Assembly (NCBI GenBank): GCA_027487515.1
Contig: JAIYDL010000024.1
Coordinates: forward strand, 1-64,000
DNA from: Pseudomonadota bacterium
GTDB taxonomy: Bacteria > Bdellovibrionota > Bacteriovoracia > Bacteriovoracales > Bacteriovoracaceae
Direction: 5' to 3'
DNA length: 64,000 bases
Below, piece after piece: positions 9,297-39,636 of the stretch. Made by a program: the position numbers and the translations under genes. How positions within the stretch are numbered: position 1 is the first letter of the stretch; the number at the start of each line of letters is the position of its first letter. The notes under the pieces were generated by a model, which saw only the letters and a program-made list of their open reading frames with translations, was not told the origin of the DNA and did no database searches.

Positions 9297-9935
9297 ATGA
9301 GTGACATCCTCCAAAAGCTCCAGGACTCCCGATTCCTTCACGTGCGCCAAGTCTACGAACCCTTCGAGTTCCTGGGCTTTGAGACGCGGAATAAGTACCA
9401 AATCCTCGACGACAAAGAGGGCCTCATCCTGTTTGCCGCAGAGGAGGCCACTGGTTTAGGTGGAGCTCTCCTGCGGCAGATCCTGGGCCACTGGCGAAGC
9501 TTCAAGGTCGTCATCTTTGACCAAGACCGGAACCCCAGGTTTCACCTGCACTTCCCTTTCCGCTGGTTTTTCAAGTCTCTCACGGTCACTGACGATCAAG
9601 GTCAAACCCTCGGCACACTCGAGGAGCGCTTTGCGATCCTGCGCAAAAAGTTCGATGTCCTCGATCCACAAGGAAGAGTGCTGGCAAGGATCAACAGCTC
9701 CTTCTTTCGGTTCTGGACCTTCGAGTTTTTCCACCGAGGGCGGTCTCTCGGAAAGATCCAGAAGAAATGGTCCGGAGGAATGGCCGAGCTCTTCACGGAT
9801 AAAGATAACTTCGTGGTCTCTTTTAGGCCGGGCCTTGAGAAAGAGACTCAAGTCCTCATGCTCGCGACCTGCATCATGGTGGACATCATTTACTTTGAAA
9901 ATAACAAGACGGACCTCGGGGACCTCGTCAACTAG
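9297..9935 (+). CDS. Phospholipid scramblase / LURP-one-related (tubby-like fold) protein
   Basis: A 212-residue protein matching the scramblase-like family in bacteria: VYEPFEFLGFETRNKYQILDD at the start, repeated beta-hairpins of the 'D-x-x-G-x-x-L' type (FDVLDPQGRVLARI), then GKIQKKWSGGMAELFTDKDNFVVSF and a hydrophobic C-terminal helix (VLMLATCIMVDIIYF). Eukaryotic relatives move phospholipids between leaflets or bind membranes; the bacterial role is not established. The C-terminal hydrophobic helix could sit in the barrel core, as in tubby-like folds, or in the membrane. Overlaps the folP stop by 4 nt in convergent orientation. Confidence 0.82.
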   Translation: MSDILQKLQDSRFLHVRQVYEPFEFLGFETRNKYQILDDKEGLILFAAEEATGLGGALLRQILGHWRSFKVVIFDQDRNPRFHLHFPFRWFFKSLTVTDDQGQTLGTLEERFAILRKKFDVLDPQGRVLARINSSFFRFWTFEFFHRGRSLGKIQKKWSGGMAELFTDKDNFVVSFRPGLEKETQVLMLATCIMVDIIYFENNKTDLGDLVN

Positions 9936-17682: not shown

Positions 17683-18009
17683 CTAGGGCCGGTCTGGAGA
17701 CCTGAGTTCAACAAAAAATTCAATAAAATTGGCAGGTTGCTTCTAGTACCAAATTGCCCAAACTTTAGACATATGTCCTCGTATGTAACGCGTTAAATCA
17801 TATAAGTGTTTAAAATAAGGCCCTTCTCCCGCTGTCACCAGATTTGCATCCAGATGATCGGGGTTTTGGAATTCAAAAGACGTGATTTGCCAACCACTCG
17901 TGTAGGTATTACACACTGAAGGAGTAGTTAATGCGACGCACAATTCCTTTGGATACACTCCCCATAGTTTGGAAATTCATTTGCTAGCTTACATTCCGGA
18001 GAGGTCACA
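17683..18009 (+). promoter_or_regulatory. AT-rich leader of the ATP-grasp locus with two palindromes
   Basis: 327 nt, clearly richer in A/T than the flanking genes. It holds two perfect 10-nt palindromes spaced by 8 nt: GACATATGTC (17768-17777) and TAACGCGTTA (17786-17795). They are plausible operator half-sites for the upstream response regulator, an inference. A TATAAG follows at about 17801. A possible minus-strand frame (17743-17958, 71 codons, GTG start) has no proper ribosome-binding site and I do not call it. The Shine-Dalgarno for the next gene is GGAGAGG just before 18010. Confidence 0.4.
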
Positions 18010-21000
18010 GTGATTAAAGTTAAAAACGCTCGAAAGAAGCTTAGTCCGTATAACCCGAACCAGGGTTTCATCGGATCAGTGAAAGTCGATGTTGCCAACT
18101 ATATCTTCTCCTCCCGAAGGAAGCGGGCCCCCTACAACCATTCCCGCGCCCTCGTGAAAAACCTCCTCTCGCGGGAGGTGTCCGTGCACCTCAAGGAGTC
18201 CCAGAACCTGACGAAGTTCATCCGCAAACGGGATCTGACCTTCCAGAAGTCGGACGCCGAAGGGAACTACAAGATCTTCACTGTCCCGTGCACGACAACC
18301 ATCGTGCCCCTGCAGAAATCCGTCTTCAACACGATCGAAAAAGCAGCGCAAGCGCTGATCGTCTCCCTCCGGTGTGTGATCCAAGACATCTACGGCTCGA
18401 AGTCCGTTAAAGATTCTCCGTTCGTGAAGTCACTTCCGGTGGAGATCCGAAGCATCTTCATCCAGGCGATCATCGATTCGCCCAACTATTTCCCGCAGCT
18501 GCATCACCCGAACATGAAGAAGTATCCCTTCTTCGATAACGTGGGCCTCGACCTCGTGCTGATCGAAGACTACGTGGAGCAATCGAAGAGCTTCGACCAG
18601 ATCCTGAAGTCAAAGCGCTTCGAAAAACTTCCGACGCAGCTCCCCTTCCGAATCCTAGAACTCAACGCCGGTGCCCCGAGTGGTGCCTCCAATAACATGA
18701 ACGTGCTCGAAGGCCACTACGAGCAGAACCCGGAGGTTCTCGAAAGCCTCGGGCGTTTGCTCCCGAACGATCACTTCTCCGTGCTAGCAGAGACCTACCG
18801 ATCCCTCGGTGAGGACTGGACCGGAATCAAAGACGGAATCCAGGTGATCCTTCCGCCGGGTGGAATGAACGGCGCCGCACCGGAGATCCATAACCTTGCC
18901 GCCTACTCCGGCCTGGTCTACGCCGACCCAGTCCAACTCTTCCAAGATGAGAAAGGCCACATCCGCCTGCGCACGATCAACGGTTCGAACCCGATCGTGA
19001 CAGCGATCTATTCGCGGATCAACGCTGACTCGGCCCTCTTCGACATCGACAAGGGAATCTTCCTTCGGGACCCCGACACGAATGAGCCGATCTTTCTCCG
19101 GGACTCGCTCAAACTCGGGCAAGAGGGAGAAGCTCCCCTCGTCCTCGACGTGAACGGGAACCCGATTCCGCTCCAGAGCGACTACGCAGTTCCGGGCCTT
19201 CTCGATGCGATCCTCGGGAAGCGCATCTACATGGGGGGCCTCAACCGCATCCTCGACAACAAGATCATCCTCGCAGCCCTCACAACCTACGCGCCGAAGT
19301 TCTTCGCCCCGAAACTGCGGGAGCTCGGGCTTCAAACGAACGGGCCCAAGATCACACCGCCAGACACCCTTCCGCCGAAGGCAGAATCCGTTAAAATCAT
19401 CGAAAAGAATATGGATGAGTGGGTCATCAAAGCACCGAACCTTTCCGGAGGCTCTGGGATCTACATCATGAAGACCTTGTCCGAAGCTCAGAAGAAAGAC
19501 GTGATGGACATGATCCGGAAGGACCCGGGCCATTACGCTTACCAAAAGCTGGTGAAGATCGCACGGATTCCAGTGGCGATGAAGGACAAGAACGGCTCCC
19601 GGTTCGCGAATCTCGCAGCCGACATCCGTCTCTGGGTCTTCTACGGAGGAGGGGCGAAGGCACTCCCGAAAATGACTCACAACGCTCTGGTGCGCTACGC
19701 CCCTGAGGAGAAAGGGCCCATGAGCTCGATCGTGAATACCTCGAAGGGCGGCGGCTACGCCCCGTTCGTCGTGGTCGACGATGTGGGGACGCCGGAGGCC
19801 GTGACGGCGTCTGAGTTCATCCGTCCGAAGGCCCCGGTTCCTCTTCAGACCCACCTCCCGATGTTCGTCGCCGCTCAGTTGATTCAGGTTGGCCGCCTCG
19901 CCTCAGAGATGTACAATCACCTGAAGAACGGGACCGCAGACAGCTATACCCTCCTGGGGTTAACCCTCTCCCTGAAAACGCAGTGCCGCGAGGTCCTCTC
20001 GTTCTTGAACCCCCGAGCGATCGAGCCGATCTACAAAGTGATCGACGTCCTCGAGACCAAGCAGGCCAAGACGGCGATCGCCGCCTATTTTGAAAAGATT
20101 AACACGAACCAGATTCGATTGGTTCAGCTCCTCGCAACCCTCGAAGGAAAGAACAAGCTCTCGAAGAACTTCCGTGACCTCATGGACGAGCTCCTGGTCC
20201 TCGACCAGGACATCGTTTATCAGAACTACACCGTTGAGCATCGGAAACACGACCGACGGATCCTCCGGGAGCTGCGCACGGCCCTCATCGAGCGCGCCGG
20301 AGACGACCTCAAACTTAAAAAAGAATTCGGCACCATCCTCTCCATCCTTCGGAGTTCCATCGAGGCGTCGTTCCCTCGAGAGACGATCACGGGTAAAACT
20401 GCCACCAACATGCTCCGCCTGATCGAAGGATTCTTGGCGACCGTGCGGGAGCGGCTCCAGAACTCGGAGAAGGCGATCGAGTTCGCGAAACTCTTCACTC
20501 CGGAAACGGTTCACCCAGAACTCAAGTTTGAAACCTTTGGACTTTCGGAAGCGTCCCTGGGAAAAAGCAGTGGCTTCGCCAACGCCTCCCAGCGTGAGTT
20601 CGCCACGGGCGAGCTCCTGACCGACTCTGACTATATCCCAGCGCACGTCCGCGCGGCGCGGACGGCGTGGCTCACGGTTGAAGCCGAGGCGAAGAAGCTC
20701 CCGGTCCGAGACCGGGAGGCCTTCCTGGCTCGGAAGCGCACGGCACACTTTCAAGAGTTTCCGTTCCTCGCGCGCATGACCGAGATCATGACCTCCCGTC
20801 GGGTCGGAGTGAAGGATCTCATCGAACTCATGCCGGCCATGCCCTATGCCATGTATAACCTCGAACAGTTCGCCAAGAAGCAGGGTCTGGCCCTCGAGGA
20901 GATCTTCACCAACGAACTGACGCCGAATAAGATCTCCATCCTCTCGTCGAAGAAGATCCGGGAGGCCCACCTCTCCGCCCGGGAAGACGCCGGAGAGTGC

Positions 21001-21774
21001 TTCGCGAAGAAACGCAAGTCCCACGGCCTCTTTTCTGACTCCGACATCTTCATCTGGGTCCGCAAAGAACTCGACCCGCTTACCCAGATCTACACCGCGG
21101 GCCACGAGGTCATCCACTTCCACCAGATCGAAGAGACCACCAAGATGGAAGCGAAGGCGCTCTCCGACGGCGCCATTGCCCAGGCGTACTTCCTGAACTT
21201 CTACGGAAACTTCCTCGGAGTATCTGCGGCGAGCCTCGAAGGCCTGAACGTTGACATCTCGGTGGAACGGCAGCCGCTCTATGGCCTCGCGGACCGGATC
21301 GTCCCCTACTTCTTGACCGATCTCATCACCGAGATCCGCACCGGGATCAATGCGTCCCGGGAAGAATACGATGCGGTCCTCGACAAGTACGGCTCACTCT
21401 TTGGCTACATGATGCCGAACTCAAACCAGGTCAAGGTCAAGGCCCTCCAGGAAGTGATCCCGGCGCTCGAAAACGCGAAGAACATCACCTTCGCCAAAGA
21501 GCTCGGGCTCGAGATCGGCTGGGATGAGATCCGCTCGGCGCTCCCGTCGGCGAACCGCCGCCAGATCAAGCTCAACGAGGCCAAGATCAAGCGCGCGATC
21601 CGCAAGGCACGGCCAGACTACGAGGCCCTGACGGCGATCGGGAATCACCAGTTCTACGGAGTGAGCTTCGCGAGGAAACTCGACCTCAATCGGTCGATCA
21701 CGCTGAGACCGATTCTGTCGACGATTTCTCTTGGGAATAGCTACAACCAGACGCAACAGCAACAGCAGCAATAG
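18010..21774 (+). CDS. Giant circularly permuted ATP-grasp protein with C-terminal HExxH metalloprotease-like region
   Basis: The GTG start has a GGAGAGG Shine-Dalgarno. Residues about 160-610 match the circularly permuted ATP-grasp (DUF404/DUF407) family in order: LDLVLIEDY, ILELNAGAPSGASNN, the region EIHNLAAYSGLVYADP, RTINGSNPIVTAIYSRIN, VPGLLDAILG, the ATP-binding VIKAPNLSGGSG (472-483), DPGHYAYQKLV and ADIRLWVFYGGG. Such enzymes are amide/peptide-bond-forming ligases. Residues about 620-830 are helical and may be an alpha-E (DUF403)-like segment (QLIQVGRLASEMYNHL). Near the C-terminus AGHEVIH places an HExxH zinc motif at 1032-1036, followed by KMEAKALSDGAIAQAY, where a third ligand could lie. 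The protein ends in a Gln run (QTQQQQQQ). No signal peptide: cytosolic. At 1254 residues it is much longer than usual members (about 480-850). First gene of a run 18010-25026. Confidence 0.88.
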   Translation: MIKVKNARKKLSPYNPNQGFIGSVKVDVANYIFSSRRKRAPYNHSRALVKNLLSREVSVHLKESQNLTKFIRKRDLTFQKSDAEGNYKIFTVPCTTTIVPLQKSVFNTIEKAAQALIVSLRCVIQDIYGSKSVKDSPFVKSLPVEIRSIFIQAIIDSPNYFPQLHHPNMKKYPFFDNVGLDLVLIEDYVEQSKSFDQILKSKRFEKLPTQLPFRILELNAGAPSGASNNMNVLEGHYEQNPEVLESLGRLLPNDHFSVLAETYRSLGEDWTGIKDGIQVILPPGGMNGAAPEIHNLAAYSGLVYADPVQLFQDEKGHIRLRTINGSNPIVTAIYSRINADSALFDIDKGIFLRDPDTNEPIFLRDSLKLGQEGEAPLVLDVNGNPIPLQSDYAVPGLLDAILGKRIYMGGLNRILDNKIILAALTTYAPKFFAPKLRELGLQTNGPKITPPDTLPPKAESVKIIEKNMDEWVIKAPNLSGGSGIYIMKTLSEAQKKDVMDMIRKDPGHYAYQKLVKIARIPVAMKDKNGSRFANLAADIRLWVFYGGGAKALPKMTHNALVRYAPEEKGPMSSIVNTSKGGGYAPFVVVDDVGTPEAVTASEFIRPKAPVPLQTHLPMFVAAQLIQVGRLASEMYNHLKNGTADSYTLLGLTLSLKTQCREVLSFLNPRAIEPIYKVIDVLETKQAKTAIAAYFEKINTNQIRLVQLLATLEGKNKLSKNFRDLMDELLVLDQDIVYQNYTVEHRKHDRRILRELRTALIERAGDDLKLKKEFGTILSILRSSIEASFPRETITGKTATNMLRLIEGFLATVRERLQNSEKAIEFAKLFTPETVHPELKFETFGLSEASLGKSSGFANASQREFATGELLTDSDYIPAHVRAARTAWLTVEAEAKKLPVRDREAFLARKRTAHFQEFPFLARMTEIMTSRRVGVKDLIELMPAMPYAMYNLEQFAKKQGLALEEIFTNELTPNKISILSSKKIREAHLSAREDAGECFAKKRKSHGLFSDSDIFIWVRKELDPLTQIYTAGHEVIHFHQIEETTKMEAKALSDGAIAQAYFLNFYGNFLGVSAASLEGLNVDISVERQPLYGLADRIVPYFLTDLITEIRTGINASREEYDAVLDKYGSLFGYMMPNSNQVKVKALQEVIPALENAKNITFAKELGLEIGWDEIRSALPSANRRQIKLNEAKIKRAIRKARPDYEALTAIGNHQFYGVSFARKLDLNRSITLRPILSTISLGNSYNQTQQQQQQ

Positions 21775-21787
21775 CTGCAAGGTAAGT

Positions 21788-24007
21788 ATGAAGCACGAAT
21801 TCCTGACTTCGGACGTTGAGCAGCTGCTCCCGTTTCTAGAATCAGTCCTCCAAGACGGTGGCCAGCGCCGCTATGACATCAACGGCACCATCTCACCGGT
21901 GCGGTTCCTGAACGGGATGAGTGGGTTCGCGTACCAGGTCGAGGGCATCGAAGGAGAGCTCCTCGTGGGACTCATCCTCGGGGGGACAGGGTACGCTCTC
22001 AAACGGATCCTCCGCCAGGACGGGGTCACGAAAGAGCGCCATGATTACTTTAACATTCAAGGCGGCCTCACGTTCTCGGCCGACCGAGAGGCCCTGAAGT
22101 CCGTCATCGTGGACTTCCACGAGATGGACCTCTCCTGCCCGATCCTCAATCACCTCTACAATTACCTCTCGCTGGAGTACAAAAACGCGGCCGAAGGTCG
22201 CTCCCAGACCGCACTGGTCCACGGGGTAGAGAAGTTCCTCCGCACCCTGGGCCGCTCCCAGGAAATTGTGCTTCCGGTCCGCCACAGGACCGAAGACTCC
22301 GCCATCGAGGCCATCTACAACCGAATCCTCGCCACCGAGCTCGATCCCGTGCTCACCTGGGAGGAGCGGCAACTCGTCTTCACGAACCTCCGGCAGGAGC
22401 GGGACCTGATTTTGGGAACCAAAATTCGTGCCCACCGGCTCTCGAAATTTGCCTTCAAGCTGAGCCTTTTGCGCCGGACTGCGGAGAACTTCTGCGCTCG
22501 ACTGGTGGCACGCCCGCTCGACAACATCTCGGGTCTTCTGTACCGGTACACCGTGGGAAAGATCATCTGGTTCTTCCAGACGGTCCGGAACAATCTTGGC
22601 TACTCCATTGCTCTGGCCGTCTACGGCCCGTTCACGTACTACTTCATCACCATGCCCATGAATCCGCATGCCATGCAGGCGGTGGGCCGAGTCCGGAGCG
22701 CGTACCTTGAGGCCAAGACAAGCCTCTCCGACCTTCTCGAAAGTTCTGAGAAAGTCGCGCAAGACCTCGGTGCAAAAGAGGCCATCGCCGGCGCCAACGT
22801 AACCCCAGTGAGCGACACCGTCTCGACCAACCAGGCGGCCCCACAGACGGCAAGCCCAGGACCGATTCCGCTTGCGAACATCATCTACCAGTCCCCGGTG
22901 ACTACGGCCTCCGCACAACCCCACGTGGTCAACCTCGGAGACGGCGTCACGGAAAAGATCGTGCCGGCGCATCTGAACATGCTCCTCACCACGGACTCTG
23001 ACTCCGTGAACCGAGCGACCTGGTCCGAGCGCATGAGTAACTTTAAACAGCTCCAGATCGCCTACGAAGAGAACATCGAATACGCCTCCCGGATGGGCCG
23101 CCTCGAGCAGCTCGAAACCCAGTACAACTTTCCGATTCAGGTCGAGGCCACCTGGGAAGAACTCGAACGCTACTCCCAGGCGATCTTTAAGCTCCGGGGC
23201 GAGAACCCGAACCTCTCTGCGAAGATGAAGCAGTATCTTTTCAACGAGATCAACCGCACCCAGCAGCTCCAGCTCTACCTCTGGGACCGGATGGGGCGCT
23301 TCATCCTCGATCAGATCTACGTCATGCTCGACCAGGACCGGGAACAGAAGCGAAACGACTACTACGTGGGCCGGGCCTTCGTCTTTATGGAAGAGATGAC
23401 CAATATCCTCTCCTGGCGCTACAAGGGCCTCAAGCTCCCGGCGGGCCACGAGCGGATCAGTGCTCTGGCAGAGCACTACGCCAAGACTCGGAAGGAAACC
23501 GGAACGGTGCTGCGCAATCTGGTGGCGAACTCCGACCTCTTCAAACAAAAAGACGTCTACGACACAAAAGAGTTCCGGGGCTACATGAAGCGCCAATGGG
23601 AAATTCTCTTCCTTCAGAATTCGAAAGCAGAAGAGGCCTCCAACATGGGACTCAACATGTACATCTGGTCCGTCAGAAACACCGTCTGGGTGCTCCAGTC
23701 GGTCTACTCGGCCAAGCGCGAAGAGCTCGCTCTACTTTTGAAGCGTGATGTCTCGGGCCAGATGTTCACACCGGCCGAGAACCTTGCCCGCACGAAAGTG
23801 TCCATGCTCTACGAAACCCTCCTCCACAACCTCACGCTCGAGTACGTGGGGATCCGGGAAGAGATCAAGAATCGCCTCGGGAAGGACATCGAATCGAGCC
23901 AGCGGATGATCGTCATCGACAACCTTAAAGAATTTCTCTCCGACCGTGAGAAACTCGACAACCTCAACATCGCCGCGAGTAAGAATACGGCCGGGACCAA
24001 ACTATGA
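21788..24007 (+). CDS. Large one-TM, mostly helical protein of the ATP-grasp locus
   Basis: Starts 13 nt after the ATP-grasp gene with an AAGGTAAG ribosome-binding site; an upstream in-frame ATG (21731) lies inside that gene and is rejected. 739 residues that I cannot assign to a family. Residues 1-250 look soluble (mixed alpha/beta, no signal peptide). One hydrophobic stretch at about 257-288 (IIWFFQTVRNN...IALAVYGPFTYYFITM) is the likely membrane anchor. A Pro/Thr/Ser/Gln linker (about 330-390) follows, and residues 400-739 are helix- and charge-rich. Probable topology: N-domain in the cytoplasm next to the ligase, C-part in the periplasm. Its stop overlaps the next gene's start (ATGA). Confidence 0.8.
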   Translation: MKHEFLTSDVEQLLPFLESVLQDGGQRRYDINGTISPVRFLNGMSGFAYQVEGIEGELLVGLILGGTGYALKRILRQDGVTKERHDYFNIQGGLTFSADREALKSVIVDFHEMDLSCPILNHLYNYLSLEYKNAAEGRSQTALVHGVEKFLRTLGRSQEIVLPVRHRTEDSAIEAIYNRILATELDPVLTWEERQLVFTNLRQERDLILGTKIRAHRLSKFAFKLSLLRRTAENFCARLVARPLDNISGLLYRYTVGKIIWFFQTVRNNLGYSIALAVYGPFTYYFITMPMNPHAMQAVGRVRSAYLEAKTSLSDLLESSEKVAQDLGAKEAIAGANVTPVSDTVSTNQAAPQTASPGPIPLANIIYQSPVTTASAQPHVVNLGDGVTEKIVPAHLNMLLTTDSDSVNRATWSERMSNFKQLQIAYEENIEYASRMGRLEQLETQYNFPIQVEATWEELERYSQAIFKLRGENPNLSAKMKQYLFNEINRTQQLQLYLWDRMGRFILDQIYVMLDQDREQKRNDYYVGRAFVFMEEMTNILSWRYKGLKLPAGHERISALAEHYAKTRKETGTVLRNLVANSDLFKQKDVYDTKEFRGYMKRQWEILFLQNSKAEEASNMGLNMYIWSVRNTVWVLQSVYSAKREELALLLKRDVSGQMFTPAENLARTKVSMLYETLLHNLTLEYVGIREEIKNRLGKDIESSQRMIVIDNLKEFLSDREKLDNLNIAASKNTAGTKL

Positions 24008-25026
24008 ACACTCGAACTTTTAACCTCCGTCCGCTGCTCGTCGCACTTGGCACCCTCTCCACTGGAGGCGCCTTCGCGCAGAGTACGAATGATCCGGTCT
24101 TTGCCCAGGTGAATAACCAGGGAAGCTACCAGGCCCAGAACCAGACCGTCCCAGGCCAGGTGATCCAGCGCTCCCTACCTCGGAAAGATCTGGCCCGTCG
24201 GCTGATCGACAACACTTCGCTCTCCTACTACCAGCAGTTCCTGGGCCCGACACCCGTGGGGTCGGGGTCCGAGACCTACAACGTCTTCCAAGAGGGCATC
24301 GACTCTCCTGGAACAGGGCGTGCCCCCCTCCAGTCATTCCATGCCCTGAACTTGCGGCATCAGATCACGCAAGACTGGGCGATCGGAACAACCCTCTCCG
24401 CCGTCAACGGCTACACCCGGGAAGTCCGGAACGAGAACGACAAAGGCGAAGTCTACACCAACACCTCGGACTGGCTCTTCTTCAACGCTCGCGCCTACGT
24501 CAACGTGCCCTCGCTGGCACTCTCATTCGGGACACTCTACACGACTCTCTCCTATGAGCACCCGACGTCGAACATCTCAAAAGATGATGAGATGCGCTGG
24601 GCGTGGGTGGTGGCGCAATCATTTGCCCTCAATCTTCCCAGCGTAAACTGGAGCGCCGGTCTCATGGGCCAGGTCTACAGGATGTACTACCAAAACAATG
24701 TCAAGGCCCCACCCTTCCCGGTTGAGTTCGGAGGAAGGCCCACGCCGCTTCAGACGATGATCGTCTCCGGTGGACCCTACGTGAACTACCGGTTCAGTGA
24801 CCGCTGGATGCTCGGGTCCGTCGTGACCTTCGACTGGGATCAGCGGGGAGTCCAGTCGAGCACCCAGGACTTCAACAATAACCTCTCCGACCGGGCCCGG
24901 CTGACGTTGAGCTACTTCCCGCAGAAGATTCCCTTCCTGAAGTCCGTGGGACTCTTCACGCAGACACTCCTGAAGTTTAGGCCTGAGACCAGCGCCATTG
25001 GTGCGGACCTTACACTGCGGTTTTAA
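24004..25026 (+). CDS. Outer-membrane beta-barrel protein of the ATP-grasp locus
   Basis: 340 residues with a signal peptide (MNTRTFNLRPLLVALGTLSTGGAFAQ) followed by amphipathic strands rich in aromatic residues and ending in ADLTLRF, a C-terminal Phe signature for BAM-mediated insertion. Residues 30-80 are a Gln/Asn-rich periplasmic stretch. No specific porin or transporter family is recognised. Four-base overlap with the previous gene and a downstream hairpin (25054-25076) make it the last gene of this transcriptional unit, suggesting it works with the ATP-grasp and membrane proteins. Confidence 0.85.
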   Translation: MNTRTFNLRPLLVALGTLSTGGAFAQSTNDPVFAQVNNQGSYQAQNQTVPGQVIQRSLPRKDLARRLIDNTSLSYYQQFLGPTPVGSGSETYNVFQEGIDSPGTGRAPLQSFHALNLRHQITQDWAIGTTLSAVNGYTREVRNENDKGEVYTNTSDWLFFNARAYVNVPSLALSFGTLYTTLSYEHPTSNISKDDEMRWAWVVAQSFALNLPSVNWSAGLMGQVYRMYYQNNVKAPPFPVEFGGRPTPLQTMIVSGGPYVNYRFSDRWMLGSVVTFDWDQRGVQSSTQDFNNNLSDRARLTLSYFPQKIPFLKSVGLFTQTLLKFRPETSAIGADLTLRF

Positions 25027-25076: not shown

Positions 25077-25208
25077 CTTCCGTTGACTTGCCTGAACCAA
25101 ATTCCATCTGTCACTCCCGAATGTAATCTTTACTAAACTTCGCGAATGATCTCGAAGTCACTCCGGGTTTTTGATACACCACTGTGCATATTCTCTTCCG
25201 GAGGTTCT

Positions 25209-26882
25209 ATGAAGACCAAGCACTATCTCATGATGTCCCTGACTCTCGCCGTGCTCTCTAGCCACGGCCACGCGCAGATGCTGCCGAACCAAGACGACTG
25301 CGACGAAGAGACTCAGGACTGCTCAACCCAAGGAAGAGTTGGCGACGCCAACAGGTCGATCTATCCCTTTAAGCCGTTTACGACAGATCACATCAAGGCC
25401 CGGCTCACGGCCCTCAACGAGGGAGAGAACTACATCTCCAACGTCTTCCAAATGGAGCGCCGGGGCCTTAACCGCGCCAACACGAAAGTCCAGCCCTGGG
25501 GTGGTCCGTACTGGGCACTCTACCAGGGGATGATCGGGAACACCTACCAAGACAAGGATCTTGATACCTTCGTCTTCTCACTCCGCCGGAACCTCGACTG
25601 GAAGAAGAACGTCAGTGACTACAAGAAGCGCGCCGAGAAGGTGCATCCGAAAATCTACGACCTCGATGAAGAAGAACTCGGAAAGCTTGCTCCGTCGGAG
25701 AAGTATGATCTGCTCCTCGGAGACACGAGCTTTGACCTTACGAACCGCATCTGGGCCTACGCCGAGAAATGGGGAAGTGAAAAGAAATGGGGCTTCCTTT
25801 CGGCGATCAATCTCCCGGACGGCTTCCGCGTCCCGAGTGTGAACCAGCGGATGGCCCTCTGGGAAGGGATTTGCCACGGTTGGGCGGTGGCCGCAGGACA
25901 CACGCCGCGGCCTGAGCGCACCGTCACGGTGACTCTCCCGAATGGCAAGCGCATGCCATTCTACCCGAACGACATCAAGGCCCTGATCTCTCTCATGTGG
26001 GCGAACTCCACACTCCAGTCGAACGTGATCTTCGAAGGTAACCGCTGCAACAAGAAGAATCCTGACAAGGACAGAAATGGCCGCTACATCGACTTGGTTA
26101 AAGACCGGGATGACGTGAGCCTCCTCCCCCGCTGCGCCGACGTTCACCCAGGGATTTTCCACGTCTCCTTGGTGAACATCCTCGGAGTCGAAGGTCGAAG
26201 CTTCGTGGTTGATAAAACCGCCGAGGCACCGATCGCAAACCAGCCGGTCTCCGGGTACGAACTGTACTACTTTAACCCGCGCACCGGGAAAGAGGGTCCG
26301 CTCTCGGAGTCTGTCCTCTCCCGCACCATCTACGGTGACAAGGACCCGTTCCGGAGCTCCCGGAACGCCGAGGCCACCCACATCGTCGGCGTCGAAGTTA
26401 AGCTGAAGTACGTCGACTGGGAGTACCCGAGGAAGGCGGTAACGAACGGCCCGGGGGATGACAAGATCTCGGACTTTAGCTTCACCTACGACCTCGAGCT
26501 CGACTGGCGCGGAAACGTGGTCGGAGGTCAATGGCGAGTGGCGCGGAAAGGAGGCCCGGGAGTGGTCAACACGAAGACCCACCAACCGGACTTCTTCTGG
26601 GTTGTCCCTCGGGATTGGAAAGAGTACTTCAAGCCACTCTCTCTGCCAGCGTGGAACTTCTCTCGCAGCACTCTTCCACCGAGTGACTTCGCACCGGCCG
26701 CGCGCGGCGCCCATAGCTTTATCTACGAAGAATCCAAGCGCTACTGGGGCGTCTCTCCGATGTGCCCCGTGTTCCCGGAGAACGGAGGAGCACCAATCAT
26801 GGTTGAGTGCGAGTTCCGCTACCCGCGGCCTCAGCCGCTCATCAACGTCATCGAGACACTCCTCGATCAGTCGCGAAGGTAG
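25209..26882 (+). CDS. Secreted transglutaminase/cysteine-peptidase-like protein A (TGase-elicitor-like)
   Basis: The start at 25209 follows GGAGG by 5 nt and opens a signal peptide (MKTKHYLMMSLTLAVLSSHGHAQ); an upstream in-frame start adds only non-hydrophobic residues. In 557 residues a Cys-His-Asp triad can be placed by comparison with the next gene: Cys222 in WEGICHGWAVAAGH, His318 in HPGIFHVSL, Asp335 in SFVVDKTAE. The C-x-GWA arrangement resembles the family of the oomycete transglutaminase elicitor and its bacterial homologues, which cross-link or cleave Gln/amide bonds. This copy has an extra N-terminal segment with four Cys (DDCDEETQDC) and a C-terminal extension of about 130 residues with Cys pairs. 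Periplasmic or secreted. Followed after 6 nt by its paralogue. Confidence 0.8.
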   Translation: MKTKHYLMMSLTLAVLSSHGHAQMLPNQDDCDEETQDCSTQGRVGDANRSIYPFKPFTTDHIKARLTALNEGENYISNVFQMERRGLNRANTKVQPWGGPYWALYQGMIGNTYQDKDLDTFVFSLRRNLDWKKNVSDYKKRAEKVHPKIYDLDEEELGKLAPSEKYDLLLGDTSFDLTNRIWAYAEKWGSEKKWGFLSAINLPDGFRVPSVNQRMALWEGICHGWAVAAGHTPRPERTVTVTLPNGKRMPFYPNDIKALISLMWANSTLQSNVIFEGNRCNKKNPDKDRNGRYIDLVKDRDDVSLLPRCADVHPGIFHVSLVNILGVEGRSFVVDKTAEAPIANQPVSGYELYYFNPRTGKEGPLSESVLSRTIYGDKDPFRSSRNAEATHIVGVEVKLKYVDWEYPRKAVTNGPGDDKISDFSFTYDLELDWRGNVVGGQWRVARKGGPGVVNTKTHQPDFFWVVPRDWKEYFKPLSLPAWNFSRSTLPPSDFAPAARGAHSFIYEESKRYWGVSPMCPVFPENGGAPIMVECEFRYPRPQPLINVIETLLDQSRR

Positions 26883-26888
26883 GGTGTT

Positions 26889-28115
26889 ATGAAGAGCCTT
26901 CTCCTCATCTCCGCACTCGTCTCTGCCACCGCCTTCGGGCAAGCGGCGAAAACAGAGGAAGACCCGACCCCTCTCTTCGAGGGTCAACGGGAAGTACGCT
27001 CCCTCTCGGAAGCGGCGAGGCTGGGTCTTAACCGGGGTCAAACGGCGCTGGACCTCTGGTCCGGTTCCTACTGGCCAACCTACCAGGGGGCCCTGGCCGT
27101 GCGGTACCGGGCCCAGGAGCTGAAGCCTCTTCTGGAAGGAAAAGCTCAGTGGGACAAGCACCGCGAGCTCTACGAGAAACTCCCGCTCTACAGCTTCATC
27201 GGGCGCGAGAACGAACTCTCTCCGGCGGAGAAGTACGACCTCCTCGTTGGGGACGAAGAGATGACCCTCACGAAATACGCCTGGGAGCTCGGAGAGAAGA
27301 GTAACCTGGGAGGGAAAGTGAAGACCTGGCGCGGGCTCTGCGACGGCTGGGCTTCCGCAGCCCAGATGATGCCGAGGCCTCGGAAGAGCGTGACTCTTGT
27401 GACCCCGAAGGGACTCCCACTGACGTTCTTTCCCGAAGACATCAAGGCCCTGGGGTCTCAGATGTACGCCCGCTCTCAGGGACCCGTCATCTTCATCGGT
27501 AAGCGCTGCCGGCCCGTGATCGGGACCTTCACCGGCGCCTGCGACGAAACCAATCCCGGAACCTTTCACCGGGCCCTCCTGACTCGAGTCGGGAAGCTCC
27601 GGAAGACCTTCATCGCCGACGTGTCCCCCGGGGGAGAAGTCTGGAACTATCCGGTGGAGAGCTACCAGGTCACCTACTACAACGTGTTCGACGATGAGGA
27701 GTCGCAAGACTTCGAGACCGTGAAAGAGGCGTTCGATAAGAAAGGCCGGTTCGCACGCCCAGGGCGTCGGGATCCACGGACGGCGTTTATTGTGGGCGTG
27801 AAGCTCACGGTGAACTACCGGGACATGCGCGACGCGAACTTAAGCGAGACGGATGGACCACTGCTGGATAAGGTTCTCACCAAGACCTACGTCTACGACC
27901 TCGAACTCGACGGCCAGAACAATATCCTCCGCGGGGAATCCTTTTCGAAGAACCTTCCGGATTTCATCTGGGCCCCGAATGACCGGACGTATCCGCTCTC
28001 GGACGCAGAGGAAAGGAATGCTTCGACGTCAGTCGTTGAGCTCTCGAAGGTTTCTGCGAAACGAGGACAGCCGCTCGCACGGATCGTGGAGCGGTTGTTC
28101 GAGCTCGCAAAATAG
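26889..28115 (+). CDS. Secreted transglutaminase/cysteine-peptidase-like protein B, paralogue of A
   Basis: 408 residues with a signal peptide (MKSLLLISALVSATAFGQ). It aligns by eye with protein A along its length: YWPTYQGALA with YWALYQGMIG, SPAEKYDLLVGD with APSEKYDLLLGD, FPEDIKALGS with YPNDIKALIS, SYQVTYYN with GYELYYFN. The triad is Cys151 (WRGLCDGWASAAQ), His227 (NPGTFHRAL), Asp244 (TFIADVS). It lacks the Cys-rich N- and C-terminal extras of A, so it is the compact form. The pair probably arose by tandem duplication and then diverged (identity looks low, perhaps a quarter to a third). The stop lies 2 nt from that of the convergent metalloprotease. Confidence 0.8.
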   Translation: MKSLLLISALVSATAFGQAAKTEEDPTPLFEGQREVRSLSEAARLGLNRGQTALDLWSGSYWPTYQGALAVRYRAQELKPLLEGKAQWDKHRELYEKLPLYSFIGRENELSPAEKYDLLVGDEEMTLTKYAWELGEKSNLGGKVKTWRGLCDGWASAAQMMPRPRKSVTLVTPKGLPLTFFPEDIKALGSQMYARSQGPVIFIGKRCRPVIGTFTGACDETNPGTFHRALLTRVGKLRKTFIADVSPGGEVWNYPVESYQVTYYNVFDDEESQDFETVKEAFDKKGRFARPGRRDPRTAFIVGVKLTVNYRDMRDANLSETDGPLLDKVLTKTYVYDLELDGQNNILRGESFSKNLPDFIWAPNDRTYPLSDAEERNASTSVVELSKVSAKRGQPLARIVERLFELAK

Positions 28116-28924: not shown

Positions 28925-29695
28925 ATGAAAAGGCTCTTCTTCCTCATGCTTTGTTCTGCCAGTGCCTGGGGGCAATCTCACGTGGTCATCAGCTACTTCG
29001 ATCCCTTCGGAGGAGCGGCGTTTAACAACTCGGAGCGCGTCGCCAGAGCGCTCGAGAGTAAACTCCGTGGTCACCCATCGCTCACCGTCCACCTCTGTGC
29101 TCTTGAGACCGTGTTCGAGCGCTCCTTCGGGCAGCTCGAGGCCTGCGTGCGCTCGCTCCCCACTCCCCCGACAGTTGTCCTGGGTCTTGGAGAAACGGGA
29201 TGCAATTTGAAAGTCGAGCTGCTGGGAAGAAATCTCGATCACTCATTTGGCCCGGACAATAGCGGGGTCATGCGGAAAACAAGTCCGATCAATCCGGGCG
29301 GTCCGCAGGAACTCGGTCTGCGCTACCCGCTGGCACAGATGTACTGCGCCCTCTCACCCGAAGAGCGACGAGCGGTGGTGGTCTCGAATGATGCCGGAAG
29401 CTTTGTGTGTAACAACGTCGCCTACCAGTACGCCTGGCGCTACCCCGAGGAGCGCTTCGGCTTCATCCACGTGCCGTCGAATGACTGCCGGAACCTCGAG
29501 CGGAAAAATCGGGACGTGATACCGGCACTCGAGAAAATGATCCTGGCCGCTACGCTGACCGATGCCTCCGCCCGACTCCCGGTCAGGAAAGTCGAACTCG
29601 ACGTCCTTCGGGAGCGGCACCGAGGGGACTCGTGCCTCAAGGAATTCTACAAACGAGCTAGGGGAATTGACGAGCAAGGTCCGTGGCGATTTTAA
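28925..29695 (+). CDS. Secreted pyroglutamyl-peptidase-like cysteine peptidase (C15 family)
   Basis: Canonical C15 enzymes remove N-terminal pyroglutamate and are cytosolic. This 256-residue copy starts with a signal peptide (MKRLFFLMLCSASAWGQ). The family landmarks follow: SYFDPFGGAAFNNSE (substrate loop), Glu98 in CNLKVELLGRN, Cys162 in NDAGSFVCNNVAYQ and His182 in FGFIHVP, consistent with a Glu-Cys-His active site. A C-terminal extension of about 60 residues adds two basic segments. Export of such an enzyme is unusual, and its closeness to transglutaminase- and metalloprotease-like genes (same region, about 140 nt past the metalloprotease start) hints at a shared peptide substrate. Its end overlaps the next gene's by 38 nt, tail to tail. 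Confidence 0.83.
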   Translation: MKRLFFLMLCSASAWGQSHVVISYFDPFGGAAFNNSERVARALESKLRGHPSLTVHLCALETVFERSFGQLEACVRSLPTPPTVVLGLGETGCNLKVELLGRNLDHSFGPDNSGVMRKTSPINPGGPQELGLRYPLAQMYCALSPEERRAVVVSNDAGSFVCNNVAYQYAWRYPEERFGFIHVPSNDCRNLERKNRDVIPALEKMILAATLTDASARLPVRKVELDVLRERHRGDSCLKEFYKRARGIDEQGPWRF

Positions 29696-33730: not shown

Positions 33731-35500
33731 ATGAAGTTCTTTTTGATGCTCGCTTGCCTCGCGCCGATTTTTTCCTTCGCCTCGACGCACACTCAAACTC
33801 TTGCGCAAAAAGGCTATCCGAATGGACTCATCTCCCGAGAAGGGAAGTCAACGGCGTCGGTCTACGTCCGGCTCCCTTCACCGGGCCGAATCACCTCGGC
33901 CAATCTCAAGCTGGAGCTCGAGAGCTCCCCGCTCCTTAAATCTCCCTCGATGGTGAAGATTTTTTTTTTTTTTTTTCTTCTGACCCAGATTCCGCTCACT
34001 GGCTCCGCAGGCAGTGAGTTTGTGAAGACTTCACTTTCTCTCCCGCTGCCAAGGACTTCCCTGGCCGCGAAGTACGGTCGCTTTGATTTTCAGTTCGTGA
34101 ACATCGTTTCTGGGGACCCGTGCCTTGATCAGCGCCTCGGCGAAGGTTTGGTTCGGGTCACGGAGCGAACGGCGCTAGAGTTGAGTCTGGACGATTCGGA
34201 CCTCACAGTGGGAGACTTCTTTCTCACTCTCCCACAAGTCGTTCGTGTCTCAGTGCCGGCCGATAGATCTCCAGGGACGATGAAACTTCTCCTTCAACTG
34301 ATCGCGATCGTCCAAAGTTCTGGCGGCCGCGTCGAGTTCGTGACGAGTCCAGACGATGCCGAAATCGTTTTGACGGAGACCGGGTCAGACATCGAACTTC
34401 GCACGTTGAACGGAACTCCTCGCCTGATGGTTCCTCTGAAAGCTTCCTTCGCTGCCGCTCCCTTTCTGGGAGACATCGGAGGACTGTTTCAGACCACGGT
34501 GATGCCGTCCGTGACTCTCGCCGAGGACGCGCCAAGAACCTGGCTCGCCCGGAATGAACTGGGCCTATCCGCAACCGGTGAGCCCACGACAAGTGGCAGG
34601 AGCTGGGCGGTGAATCTCCCGAAGCTCTCTGGCCGCAATGAGACCCCGACTAAACTCCACCTCTCCCTCACCACCGCACCAAGCTTCGGGCAGCGTCCGG
34701 CCGCGCTGTATGTCTACCTGGGGGAAGAACTCCTTCGGGTGATCTCGCTTCTAGATTCCGAGCTCCCGCAGTACCACCAAGTCCTCTTGCCAGAGCGTCT
34801 GCCAGAGTGGCCAACGACTCTTCGACTTGAGGTCCGCCGAAACGACCTTGCCGGAAAATGTGGTCAGGACTACGGCAGAAATTTTGACCTGAGGCTTCTT
34901 GAAGACTCGGCCCTTGAGTACGCTGCGCCGACAGAAAAAGCGGCCGACTTCGTTGGCTTCGCCCGAGTTGACACAGATCTCGAGGTCATTTTACCCAAGA
35001 CTTCCGGGACAGACCTTCGCTGGCTCCATCAGCTCGCCTGGCTCAGGAAGTCCTTTGACTTGAACGTTGACCGCATGCACTTCACTACTACCGAGGGATC
35101 TGCATCTCGCAGGATCCGGCTCGTGCAACCAAAGTCCACGGATCCCGTGGTCCTCCGCTTCCTTGCATCGCGGAAGCTTTCGGTTTCAAGCCTTCGCAAG
35201 ATCACGCTCGTGACTGCGGGCCTGGAAGGTGAGACTCCGACGCTTACCGTAGAGGCCCTGGGTGGACCGTTTGTGACCCGCGCCCCAAGTTTTTCACCCG
35301 ATCACCATGACCTATTAGCGTTCGGAGCCGAGCGAGTAGAAGCCTTAGGCGCAACACGAGAGCTTAGGGAGCGAGTCGCGCGCCATGGGCAAGGACCGTC
35401 CCTCATCACTTTCCTTGAGGAATGGCGCTATCTCTTGCTGGGTCTTGCCTGGGTAGCACTCACCCTCGCCTTCCTTGCTCTTGGGAAAAAGTTCAAGTGA
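33731..35500 (+). CDS. BcsB-like periplasmic polysaccharide-synthase subunit
   Basis: In cellulose-type systems BcsB sits in the periplasm, anchored by one C-terminal TM helix, and guides the polymer from the synthase. The 589 residues have that plan: signal peptide (MKFFLMLACLAPIFSFA), tandem beta-rich halves with PGRITSANLKLELESSPLL (split), IPLTGSAGSEF and a second repeat (LPKLSGRNETPTKLHLSLTTAP split, EELLRVISL), then one TM near 560-585 (YLLLGLAWVALTLAFLAL). Residues 78-82 are Phe encoded by a T17 run that can slip. First gene of a tightly overlapping operon (33731-41003) with a GT2 synthase, which supports the assignment. Confidence 0.75.
   Translation: MKFFLMLACLAPIFSFASTHTQTLAQKGYPNGLISREGKSTASVYVRLPSPGRITSANLKLELESSPLLKSPSMVKIFFFFFLLTQIPLTGSAGSEFVKTSLSLPLPRTSLAAKYGRFDFQFVNIVSGDPCLDQRLGEGLVRVTERTALELSLDDSDLTVGDFFLTLPQVVRVSVPADRSPGTMKLLLQLIAIVQSSGGRVEFVTSPDDAEIVLTETGSDIELRTLNGTPRLMVPLKASFAAAPFLGDIGGLFQTTVMPSVTLAEDAPRTWLARNELGLSATGEPTTSGRSWAVNLPKLSGRNETPTKLHLSLTTAPSFGQRPAALYVYLGEELLRVISLLDSELPQYHQVLLPERLPEWPTTLRLEVRRNDLAGKCGQDYGRNFDLRLLEDSALEYAAPTEKAADFVGFARVDTDLEVILPKTSGTDLRWLHQLAWLRKSFDLNVDRMHFTTTEGSASRRIRLVQPKSTDPVVLRFLASRKLSVSSLRKITLVTAGLEGETPTLTVEALGGPFVTRAPSFSPDHHDLLAFGAERVEALGATRELRERVARHGQGPSLITFLEEWRYLLLGLAWVALTLAFLALGKKFK
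33960..33976 (+). repeat. T17 homopolymer inside the BcsB-like gene
   Basis: Seventeen consecutive T spanning codon 77 to codon 82. In the present state the frame stays open. Loss or gain of one T would shift the frame and truncate the protein, so this is a candidate phase-variation tract; it is also a place where assemblies err. Confidence 0.9.
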
Positions 35501-36303
35501 TTGGGATCCTCTTCCTTCTCGTTTCGGCCCTGGGCCATACCGCGGCCAATATTCCGGCCGTAGGGAAGGGGCAACTCTTTCTGGGAATGAATACCTACGA
35601 GGCCCGCGCTCAGTTCGACGGAAACGGTGGCCGCGACTCCTTCGGGAACTCTGGCAAGTTCACAAAAAGTGAATTCACGTACTATGCAGTTTATACCCTC
35701 CGGGAAAAGCTCGCCGTCCTGGCGACGGGCGCGGCCTTCAACCGTCTTCGGTATGAGGATTCAACTAGTGACCGCAGCTTCACCGGTAGCGGTGACCAGG
35801 GCCTGGGGTTGCGCTACCTATTTCAGCGAGACAATTCTGGGGCCCGGGCGCTGCAACTTGTGGCCACGGCTCCGGCCTATTCGCGGTCAGCAGATCCAGG
35901 GCCTGGCAACCGCCAGCATGACGTGGAACTGCGCTACCTCCAAGACCACTACCAACTCAGAGGCCTTGACTTCATCACCTTCGAAGTTGGATTTCGCAAG
36001 CGCTTCTCGACCCCCGCAGACCAGCTCCGAGGAGATTTGAGTTTTGGAAAAAACTTCCGGTCTCTCCTTCTCTTGGGCCACGTCTCGTACACCAAGGGTT
36101 TGCGCAACGACGACGGCTTAAGTTCGAACACGAACCCCACCGTCGCTACCGATTATGATCTCCTTAAAGTGGGCCCTAGCGTGGCCTGGCGCTACCGCGC
36201 AGGTGAGGCGATTCAGCTTGGGTACCTCCGGGACCTGGCCGGACGTAACGTCGGTCAGGGGCACGCGCTCTTTACCACATGGTGGAAAGAGTTTTCGCTA
36301 TGA
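35497..36303 (+). CDS. Outer-membrane barrel-like protein of the exopolysaccharide operon
   Basis: GTG start at 35497 overlaps the previous stop (GTGA) and opens a signal peptide (MIGILFLLVSALGHTAA); a longer frame from 35422 lies inside the BcsB-like gene. The 268-residue product is made of alternating amphipathic strands (ELRYLQDHYQLRG, FITFEVGFRKRF, LLLLGHVSYTKGL), typical of a small beta-barrel. It may be the polymer exit channel, analogous to the barrel end of BcsC; family not certain. The C-terminus (FTTWWKEFSL) lacks a classical terminal Phe. ATGA overlap with the next gene. Confidence 0.75.
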   Translation: MIGILFLLVSALGHTAANIPAVGKGQLFLGMNTYEARAQFDGNGGRDSFGNSGKFTKSEFTYYAVYTLREKLAVLATGAAFNRLRYEDSTSDRSFTGSGDQGLGLRYLFQRDNSGARALQLVATAPAYSRSADPGPGNRQHDVELRYLQDHYQLRGLDFITFEVGFRKRFSTPADQLRGDLSFGKNFRSLLLLGHVSYTKGLRNDDGLSSNTNPTVATDYDLLKVGPSVAWRYRAGEAIQLGYLRDLAGRNVGQGHALFTTWWKEFSL

Positions 36304-38132
36304 GCCGCTTAGGGGAGATCCTCTCCGCGCAGGGTAAGATCACTCTCGAAGACCTGACACGAGCACTGGAACTGCAGCGGCAGCGTGGGGTCCAACTGGG
36401 TCAGATTTTCGTTCAAGAAGGTATCTTAAGGCCCGAGGAACTCGACCGGGCCCTGGCGTCTCAGCTTGGCCTAAGCTACCGAGAAAAACTACCGGACACC
36501 ATCGGCCTCACCCACCTCACGGCCTCGGAGGCACGGCGCTGCCTGGACGAGCTGGTGCTCCCGCTGTCAGAATCCGAACTCGCGGTCGCAGACGTCACTT
36601 TAGAGAAAGTCAAACGCCTCAGGGCCGTCTTTGGAACCAGCATGGAGTTCGTGGTGACCTCACGGTTCCAGCTCCTCTACCACCTCCACATCGGTCTCCG
36701 GGAGCACCTCTCCCACCTCTCGGTTTACGCGCTCGCTTCATCGTATCCACACTATTCCGCTGCCCGGGTCATCGTCGGAGAACAGCTCCTGGTGCTCTAC
36801 GTCCTCGCCAGCGCCTCTCTCCTCTGGCTGTTCTTTGCGCCCTGGAGCTTCCTTCTCGCCTTGAACGTGCTGGTGACGATTTTCCTTGTCGTGAGCTTTG
36901 GCTTTAAGTTCCTGCTGGCGTGGAAGGGCTCCCACAGGTCCGTGGACTTGAAAGTCGGCCCCCAGGATCTGGCCCAGATGAAGGACGCTGGCCTTTCGAC
37001 TTACACGATCCTTGTGCCGATGTACAAGGAACCAGAAGTTTTACCCATCATCGTCCGATCTCTGGCCGAGCTCGACTACCCGAAAGAGAAGCTCGACATC
37101 AAGTTCGTTCTCGAAGAAGACGACCACGAAACCCAAGCGCGAGCCCGGGAACTCTGCCTTGGGGAAAAGATGGAAATCGTCGTCGTTCCCAAGTCCCACC
37201 CGAAGACAAAACCCAAGGCCTGCAACTACGCGCTCCAGTTCGCCCGCGGCGAATACCTCACGATCTACGACGCCGAAGATAAGCCGGAGCCGGACCAGCT
37301 CAAGAAGGCCTTCTGGGTCTTTGGCCAAGGGCCTCGGAGTTTGGCCGTGGTCCAGGCCCGGCTGAACTTTTTTAACGACGAAGAGAACTGGCTCACGCGG
37401 ATGTTCACGATGGAGTACTCTCTGTGGTTCGACTTCTACCTCCCGGCCCTAGAGCGGCTCAATGTTCCGATCCCGCTCGGGGGGACGTCGAATCACTTCC
37501 GCACCGACTACCTGCGGGCCGTCGGGGGATGGGACCCCTTCAATGTCACCGAAGATGCAGACCTCGGGATCCGGTTCACCCAGTTCGGTTACACGGTGGG
37601 TGTGGTGAACTCCACGACGCTCGAGGAAGCGAACACGAACTACGGCAACTGGATCCGACAGCGCTCCCGCTGGATCAAGGGGTACATGCAGACCTACCTT
37701 GTGCACATGCGGGCACCCTTTAAACTGTGGAACAAGATCGGAAACCGGGCCTTCTTTTCGTTTCAGTTCTTCATCGGCGGAACCTTTTTGACCGCACTCG
37801 TGACTCCGCTCCTCTACGGCGTCTTCGGCTACTGGCTCCTCTCGGGTACCGACGTCTTCGACCCGATGTTCGTGGAGCCCCTGCTCTACCTCTCGCTTTT
37901 AAATCTTCTCCTCGGGAACGCCTTTTTTATCTACATCCAGATGGTCGGCGTGTTCAAGCGCAAGAAGTACCACCTTATCCCCTGGGCGCTCACGACTCCT
38001 CTGTACTGGCTCATGCTCTCTCGCGCAGCGCTCAAGGGCCTGTGGCAGCTCTTCACCAATCCTTTTTACTGGGAAAAGACCCAGCACGGCCTCTCGAAAA
38101 TGACAAAACAGTTGGTGAAAGATGCGTCCTAG
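36300..38132 (+). CDS. MshEN-GT2 fusion: c-di-GMP-type domain plus processive glycosyltransferase
   Basis: The synthase of the operon. Residues 1-60 form an MshEN (GspE N-terminal) domain with the paired 24-residue motifs starting at RLGEILSAQG and QLGQIFVQEG, each ending in a Leu-x-x-Gln-type unit; such motifs bind c-di-GMP. TM helices at about 160-206 follow, then a family-2 glycosyltransferase: LVPMYKEPEVL (238-248), DAED (324-327), TEDADLG (417-423) and QRSRW (454-458), the Q-x-x-R-W signature of processive synthases. At least four C-terminal TM helices close the channel. Polymer identity is unknown. Escherichia coli NfrB has a related pair of domains with MshEN at the C-terminus. ATG overlaps the previous stop (ATGA). 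Confidence 0.88.
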   Translation: MSRLGEILSAQGKITLEDLTRALELQRQRGVQLGQIFVQEGILRPEELDRALASQLGLSYREKLPDTIGLTHLTASEARRCLDELVLPLSESELAVADVTLEKVKRLRAVFGTSMEFVVTSRFQLLYHLHIGLREHLSHLSVYALASSYPHYSAARVIVGEQLLVLYVLASASLLWLFFAPWSFLLALNVLVTIFLVVSFGFKFLLAWKGSHRSVDLKVGPQDLAQMKDAGLSTYTILVPMYKEPEVLPIIVRSLAELDYPKEKLDIKFVLEEDDHETQARARELCLGEKMEIVVVPKSHPKTKPKACNYALQFARGEYLTIYDAEDKPEPDQLKKAFWVFGQGPRSLAVVQARLNFFNDEENWLTRMFTMEYSLWFDFYLPALERLNVPIPLGGTSNHFRTDYLRAVGGWDPFNVTEDADLGIRFTQFGYTVGVVNSTTLEEANTNYGNWIRQRSRWIKGYMQTYLVHMRAPFKLWNKIGNRAFFSFQFFIGGTFLTALVTPLLYGVFGYWLLSGTDVFDPMFVEPLLYLSLLNLLLGNAFFIYIQMVGVFKRKKYHLIPWALTTPLYWLMLSRAALKGLWQLFTNPFYWEKTQHGLSKMTKQLVKDAS

Positions 38133-39636
38133 CTTGGGGAGCTCCCTTTTCCTTGCGACATTTTTCTTCGGCATCGTCGCCGCCGGACTCGAGCTCCGGG
38201 AGCGCTTCTTCCTCCCAAGCATAGAGCTGCGGCTGTGGGCGATCCAAGGACCTGCGCTGGCCGATCCCCTGGGCTTTGCCTCTTACCTCTCGAACGCACC
38301 CCTGGCCTTCCATAACCTTCTGGGCCCTCTCGTCAAACTCCTCGGGGTCCAGAGCTTCTTTCTCCCCTATGTCTTGGTCCTCGCGGTCTTCACATTTCTC
38401 CTGGCGCTAAACCTCTTCCGAGTTGAGACCTGGGGAACACTGGCGCCGCGCCTCCTCCTCGTCACACTCTGCTTCTCGCACCCGGAGGCGCTGGAGATTC
38501 TGACCACGAATCCCCTCGCTCTTTTGCTCCTCATCTTCTTGTGGCTCTTCACCAAGGGCCTCCTGGAGGCCAACGCCGGAAACCTGGGCCGTGGTGTTCT
38601 CTTGATGGGCTTCTCGAGCGCACTTCTGGTCCTCTCCGGCGCCCTAGGCATCGCCTACGCTCTAGCACTCTTTGCCTTGGTCCCGATCCTCATCCGAGGC
38701 GATCTCTTCCGCGAATCCGTCACCGGTGGTTTTCTCGTGTTAACTTTTCCCACCGCCGCCGCTCTAATCGGACTCTTCTACCTGGGCTGGCTGTACCATA
38801 AACCTGCTGCAGATCTCGCCTTCATGTCTCCGGTGACTCTCTCGCTGAACCTCGAATTCCTTCCATGGCTGCCATTCCTACCGCTCATCCCCGGACTCGT
38901 CCTGCCTTGGGGTGGCAGAGGAATCATGGCCCGCATCTTCAGCTTAAAGACCCCCCTTCTGGGAGTTCTCGCCTACGTCTTTGCGGCGGCCCTGGGGATG
39001 GAGTTTTCCCTGGAGACCATCCTCGGCATGACGGCGATCGGTGCTGGCCTAGAGTTTCTTAACCGGCAGCACCTCTCTTCGCTTCATTTCCTGGCCGCCG
39101 TGAGTTTTTCAGTCGCTGCCTGGCTCTCACCGGTCACCGTTCACCAATCTCCCTCCATCCGAGGATCAAGCTGGCACGCGCTCCAGGGCTGGGTTCGGGC
39201 CCAAGCGGAGGGGCAGGTTCTCATCCTCTCCCCAAGGCATACCCTTTTGACTTTAGGCGCACAGAATCGAGGCGACCTTTTAGCTCCCGGTGGAGTCAAC
39301 TTTAAGCAGCGACTTATTCTGGGTAACTTTCAAGGGATTGGTCGACTGATCGTGGAGATCCCGTTTGGTAAAGCGGCCGTAGACACCCTAGGCCGCTACC
39401 AGGAGCGGTATTTCTTCTCCCCTCCACCTGGCCTGCAACTGGTCTTCGACGATGAAACTTTCAGGGTCTATGATCGAAATCCTAAGCTTGCGGCCCCTCG
39501 GATCGGCCAGGGCCCGCTTTCTCAAGGCCTCACCGACCCCTGGCGCCTGATCCGCGATGTATTTACAGGAGTCCTTTTCCTGGGGGTCCTTCTTGTGGTA
39601 GGTAAACGTGGCACTAACTCTGAGAGAAACGCATGA
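38122..39636 (+). CDS. Polytopic inner-membrane protein of the exopolysaccharide operon
   Basis: 504 residues, 11-nt overlap with the synthase gene. I count about eleven hydrophobic segments in residues 1-345, then a soluble domain of about 110 residues (SSWHALQGWVRAQAEGQVLI...DETFRVYDRN) and a last TM near the C-terminus. The layout (many TM helices, then an extracytoplasmic domain) is that of GT-C-type glycosyltransferases such as ArnT/PMT relatives, but I see no clear catalytic Asp/Glu motif in the first loop, so this is only a suggestion. ATGA overlap with the next gene. Confidence 0.7.
   Translation: MRPSLGSSLFLATFFFGIVAAGLELRERFFLPSIELRLWAIQGPALADPLGFASYLSNAPLAFHNLLGPLVKLLGVQSFFLPYVLVLAVFTFLLALNLFRVETWGTLAPRLLLVTLCFSHPEALEILTTNPLALLLLIFLWLFTKGLLEANAGNLGRGVLLMGFSSALLVLSGALGIAYALALFALVPILIRGDLFRESVTGGFLVLTFPTAAALIGLFYLGWLYHKPAADLAFMSPVTLSLNLEFLPWLPFLPLIPGLVLPWGGRGIMARIFSLKTPLLGVLAYVFAAALGMEFSLETILGMTAIGAGLEFLNRQHLSSLHFLAAVSFSVAAWLSPVTVHQSPSIRGSSWHALQGWVRAQAEGQVLILSPRHTLLTLGAQNRGDLLAPGGVNFKQRLILGNFQGIGRLIVEIPFGKAAVDTLGRYQERYFFSPPPGLQLVFDDETFRVYDRNPKLAAPRIGQGPLSQGLTDPWRLIRDVFTGVLFLGVLLVVGKRGTNSERNA

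Follow-up and report, generated by a model that had tools for sequence, protein, structure and literature searches.

A CP-ATP-grasp ligase joined to a putative zinc peptidase, with a conserved glutamine tail, in some Bdellovibrionota

Can one polypeptide carry both a site that makes an amide bond and a site that breaks one? The question is raised by a 1254-residue protein encoded in a 64,000-nucleotide stretch of DNA (the window; contig JAIYDL010000024.1, positions 1 to 64,000) from a member of the Bacteriovoracaceae, in which a sequence-only reading had noticed a CP-ATP-grasp module, a C-terminal HExxH motif and a poly-Gln end. The open reading frame, its length and the positions of both motifs (VIKAPNLSGGSG at residues 472-483 and HEVIH at 1032-1036) are as that reading described them, and the terminal run consists of six Gln (1249-1254). 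It had missed a conserved Y-N-Q-T-Q-Q tail beneath the poly-Q and an obligate partner gene. We find the joining of ligase and protease in one chain to be well supported as an architecture.

The fusion gene and its distribution

17998..18004, + strand: GGAGAGG ribosome-binding site, 5' of the GTG start (sequence)
18010..21774, + strand: CP-ATP-grasp / HExxH fusion protein, 1254 aa (open reading frame list, Pfam)

The fusion gene is present as a single copy in its own genome. When the C-terminal extension was sought elsewhere, the fusion was found in 44 of 290 genomes of the phylum, a count that excludes 14 partial ligase or domain-only matches. The 46 homologues span three Bdellovibrionota lineages at pairwise identities of 25-99%, and conservation was scored on 46 C-terminal and 42 full-length sequences. 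Named relatives are mainly MAGs labelled Bacteriovoracaceae, Halobacteriovoraceae, Bdellovibrionales or Oligoflexia, and the carriers are uncultured relatives of predatory bacteria. We also note that contigs titled Nitrosovibrio and Nonlabens (L116, L127) carry the gene; these are probably misbinned or mislabelled MAGs. No phage relative was found, and PADLOC and PHROGs searches returned no meaningful match.

Ligase half, HExxH domain and C-terminal tail

18079..19779, + strand: CP-ATP-grasp ligase part, residues ~24-590 (Pfam; predicted fold of the homologue L122)
18658..18666, + strand: E217-x-N219, invariant in the alignment, a candidate Mg-binding motif by analogy with glutathione synthetases
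19423..19458, + strand: VIKAPNLSGGSG, residues 472-483, K474 invariant (sequence, alignment)
19927..20649, + strand: helical linker, residues 640-880 (model, alignment)
20647..21729, + strand: putative metallopeptidase part, residues ~880-1240 (models; weak DUF6782 matches)
21103..21117, + strand: HEVIH, residues 1032-1036, with H, E and H invariant, on a predicted helix (1023-1053)
21469..21483, + strand: E1154-N-A-K-N1158, candidate third zinc ligand and helper (invariance, model)
21742..21771, + strand: C-terminal tail, YNQTQQ plus four extra Gln (alignment, models)

Pfam and the predicted fold both agree with the original assignment of the N-terminal half. In Pfam, the window protein matches PF14403 (CP_ATPgrasp_2; E 8.8e-18, 64.8 bits against a curated cut-off of 32) and PF04174 (CP_ATPgrasp_1; E 6.3e-10, 39 bits against 23.1). 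The full-length fold was modelled on L122, which is 57% identical, in place of the window protein (pLDDT 85.5, pTM 0.86), and residues 12-557 of this predicted model match PDB 3n6x with Z 33.0 and an rmsd of 2.9 over 437 aligned residues. Further matches of the modelled ligase part are to glutathione synthetases (Z ~21), YgiC (PDB 7uk8, Z 18.1), Cp1B (PDB 9cjn, Z 17.0) and the E. coli and trypanosomatid synthetase-amidases (Z 15-17; 16.6 for 2io7, 15.9 for 2vpm, and 15.4-16.6 across 2io7-2iob, 2vpm, 2vps and 2vob). Eight polar residues that a functional site should have (E217, N219, K418, K474, D538, R540, E567 and N576), with individual roles that we take from related enzymes, are invariant in 42 of 42 sequences. 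As modelled, then, the N-terminal half is a circularly permuted ATP-grasp that has retained both its fold and its catalytic residues.

The HExxH site is just as constant: none of the 46 C-terminal or 42 full-length sequences varies at H1032, E1033 or H1036. No full-length homologue is missing either site; loss of the motif in close homologues was one of the two refutations named beforehand. One HExxH is expected by chance 0.027 times in a protein of this composition and, with 6.7% of columns in the C-terminal half invariant, three motif positions would be invariant by chance with a probability of ~3e-4, a figure that serves only as a guide since the sequences are related. Window residues 640-1254 were modelled confidently (pLDDT 88.9), with strands at 995-1001 and 1011-1018 followed by the helix (1023-1053) that bears HEVIH. 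E1154, N1155 and N1158 are invariant among the fused members (42-46 sequences), as is E1148, and E1154 lies on a separate, confidently predicted helix. E1047, also invariant, is an unlikely ligand because it sits three turns farther along the motif helix. Gluzincins have a Glu-x-x-x-Asp/Asn arrangement that E1154-N1155-x-x-N1158 resembles, and E1154 within ENAKN is the likely third zinc ligand.

DUF6782 (PF20573), presumably a family of metallopeptidases, weakly matches 38 of the 46 members (best E 1.1e-4), the window protein itself scoring 14.4-15.8 bits, under the curated cut-off of 27. Foldseek and VIA-align searches with the C-terminal half, in which the helical linker took up the list, yielded no significant fold match of the peptidase part to a solved zincin, and a PDB profile search with the C-terminal alignment yielded no match. 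A 251-aa relative of the peptidase part (L063:8678-9433), encoded near transglutaminase-like genes, has lost both motif His while keeping the domain and is likely a pseudo-enzyme; its ENxKN segment is retained 26 residues after the second motif position, much closer than in the window protein and at a spacing seen in gluzincins.

Conservation differs sharply between the linker (mean 0.52) and the tail (mean 0.96, the highest of the segments compared), in which Y1245 and Q1250 are invariant. The poly-Q end of the window protein is one variant of the Y-N-Q-T-Q-Q tail, the extra Gln numbering 0 to 6 or more, a variation that is hard to square with use of an exact C-terminal carboxylate. In the model of the C-terminal half the tail is disordered (pLDDT <50), whereas in the full-length model of L122 the final tail block averages 81 pLDDT and the penultimate residue is assigned to a strand or bridge; the comparison is confounded, in that the protein is a different one, the alignment differs slightly and extra Gln are present, besides the ligase part. 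Since order in the modelled tail appears only where the ligase part is present, the tail probably lies docked against that half. Downstream signals as the cause of tail conservation were considered and rejected, since the f12 loci, in which the fusion gene is divergent from the partner gene, keep the tail.

Gene neighbourhood and a distant ligase group

21788..24007, + strand: obligate partner protein, 739 aa, no Pfam match (adjacency, co-occurrence)
24004..25026, + strand: 340-aa protein with a signal-peptide-like start and a beta-barrel-like C-terminal Phe (sequence features, loci)
25146..26882, + strand: exported transglutaminase-like protein (PF16683; Pfam 3.3e-35)
26889..28115, + strand: second exported transglutaminase-like protein (PF16683; Pfam 2.3e-31)

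The fusion protein and the 739-aa partner share the same 44 genomes, the partner being present in 0 of the 246 others, and the two genes adjoin in 23 of 23 loci read. The partner has strongly conserved segments, including the almost invariant core NLGYSxALAxYGPFTxYFITxPMNPHAM; a PDB profile search with its alignment gave no match. The gene for the 340-aa exported protein accompanies the pair in 21 of 23 loci, and in the window its start overlaps the partner stop by 4 bases. Judging by its signal-like start and terminal Phe, this protein probably sits in the outer membrane. Of 34 genomes, 17 have transglutaminase-like genes no more than 10 kb away, where 1.7 would be expected; since the genomes are related, this is only a guide.

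Other genes were noted in the window. Close downstream of the cassette (28925-29695) is a Peptidase_C15 (pyroglutamyl peptidase) with a signal-peptide-like start, found in the same place in some genomes of the genus; a Scramblase family protein (PF03803, 8e-35), here in a bacterium, is encoded at 9297-9935; and a cluster at 33731-41003, which includes a BcsB-like protein and a family 2 glycosyltransferase, consists of probable exopolysaccharide genes.

The phylum has a second, distant group of CP-ATP-grasp proteins, in which some members likewise carry HExxH (L069, L070, L072, L074, L186 and L187). Gln-rich tails are found in L069, L070/L186, L074 and L071, whose ligase and HExxH parts are separate open reading frames, and are absent from L072 and L187. 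Other members of the group lack the HExxH part, and the ligase can thus in some cases do without it. Signal-peptide-like starts occur in 9 of 10 distant proteins read, with or without HExxH, which is odd for an ATP-dependent enzyme; going by these starts, the HExxH-bearing members are apparently exported ATP-dependent ligases. When the HExxH parts of both groups were compared, no similarity was detected (probability 0.2%), a result that does not imply unrelatedness as one side comprised only 5 sequences.

Interpretation and comparison with known systems

Given an intact ligase domain, a conserved zinc-protease signature, a near-unchanging tail and a constant partner, the idea of a "make and cut" enzyme deserves to be taken seriously. 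The explanation that we favour as a whole, and to which we give a little less than an even chance, is a bifunctional cytoplasmic ligase and zinc peptidase, coupled by its tail and working with its partner. The N-terminal ligase, of the glutathionylspermidine-synthetase type, would activate a peptide carboxylate with ATP and join it to an amine. The C-terminal gluzincin-type peptidase, with H1032, H1036 and probably E1154 as ligands and E1033 as base, would split an amide bond within that pathway: it may set the ligation product free, undo its formation or trim the acceptor. The Gln tail may lie folded against the ligase half, where it would link the two sites by acting as a tethered acceptor or a pseudo-substrate. 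The fusion protein would act with the 739-aa partner and, mostly, with the exported beta-barrel-like protein, from which it would follow that the product probably serves the cell envelope. Counted in favour of this explanation is the recurrence of HExxH and Gln tails in the second CP-ATP-grasp group.

The same observations can be read as two separate enzymes that share a chain, in which the protease would process some other protein, for instance the 739-aa partner, while the tail would be a structural strap between domains. The obligate partner with its strongly conserved segments, the poorly conserved linker suggestive of two modules and the division of L071 into two reading frames all point that way; however, every full-length member of the three lineages retains the fusion and the conservation of the tail exceeds that usual for a strap, and we consider this account unlikely, if by no means negligible. 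That the HExxH domain is instead a non-catalytic or regulatory zincin fold (metal-binding, a scaffold or a pseudo-enzyme) has its parallel in L063, where the domain outlived both His, but is improbable, since none of the 42-46 fused members departs from H, E, H, E1154 and N1158. Weak Pfam support and the lack of a fold match for the peptidase part would be expected were HEVIH a chance motif in an ordinary helix; invariance at 25-99% identity, a helix that follows strands and the DUF6782 matches make this very improbable.

A more specific proposal is that the protein's own Gln tail is the ligase acceptor, extended or charged at the ATP-grasp site, with the product released at the HExxH site. 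We think it distinctly improbable; if true, it would make the protein a ligase that primes itself and has its releasing protease built in. RimK and LysX/ArgX, ATP-grasp enzymes whose target is the C-terminal tail of a protein and which are among the fold matches (PDB 5zct, 5k2m), offer a model for this idea, although they are not circularly permuted, their tail is on another protein and they carry no protease.

Returning to the favoured bifunctional ligase and peptidase, a metallopeptidase version with a near-invariant tail, perhaps docking on the ligase, would allow coupled or self-primed amide chemistry to be tested in a concrete case. To our knowledge, few enzymes make and break amides in one chain, and those described that we know of use a cysteine amidase. 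The two to three genes of the locus form, in addition, a cassette seen here only in some Bdellovibrionota, in which the partner protein belongs to no known family.

Among systems with related parts, the CP-ATP-grasp peptide ligases 3n6x, YgiC/YjfC (7uk8) and Cp1B (9cjn) have the ligase fold in common with the fusion protein but lack a metallopeptidase part, and the DUF6782 proteins share, weakly, the HExxH region, the window protein differing in being ligase-fused and below the family cut-off. In the CP-ATP-grasp, Alpha-E and transglutaminase peptide-modification systems, as the part of Iyer et al. (2009) quoted in PMC3597751 describes them, a CP-ATP-grasp gene likewise lies near transglutaminase-like genes; here, however, the transglutaminase family is another one (PF16683), the ligase is fused to HExxH and the partner is different. 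An Alpha-E gene (PF04168) had no match in the genome itself and was found in 1 of 114 genomes of the phylum.

The glutathionylspermidine/trypanothione synthetase-amidases (2io7, 2vpm) resemble the fusion protein in combining a ligase fold of CP-ATP-grasp type with a hydrolase in one chain, and in trypanothione synthetase-amidase the two carry out opposing reactions (PMC11124245). With this precedent, and with both sites looking intact, the sequence-only reading's suggestion that the protein edits its own product stands as possible. The hydrolase of the synthetase-amidases is an N-terminal Cys/His amidase, for which the window protein has no Pfam domain, its chain beginning with the ligase part, whereas that of the fusion protein would be the C-terminal HExxH domain; the fusion protein is also about twice as long, its Gln tail is conserved and it comes with an obligate partner.
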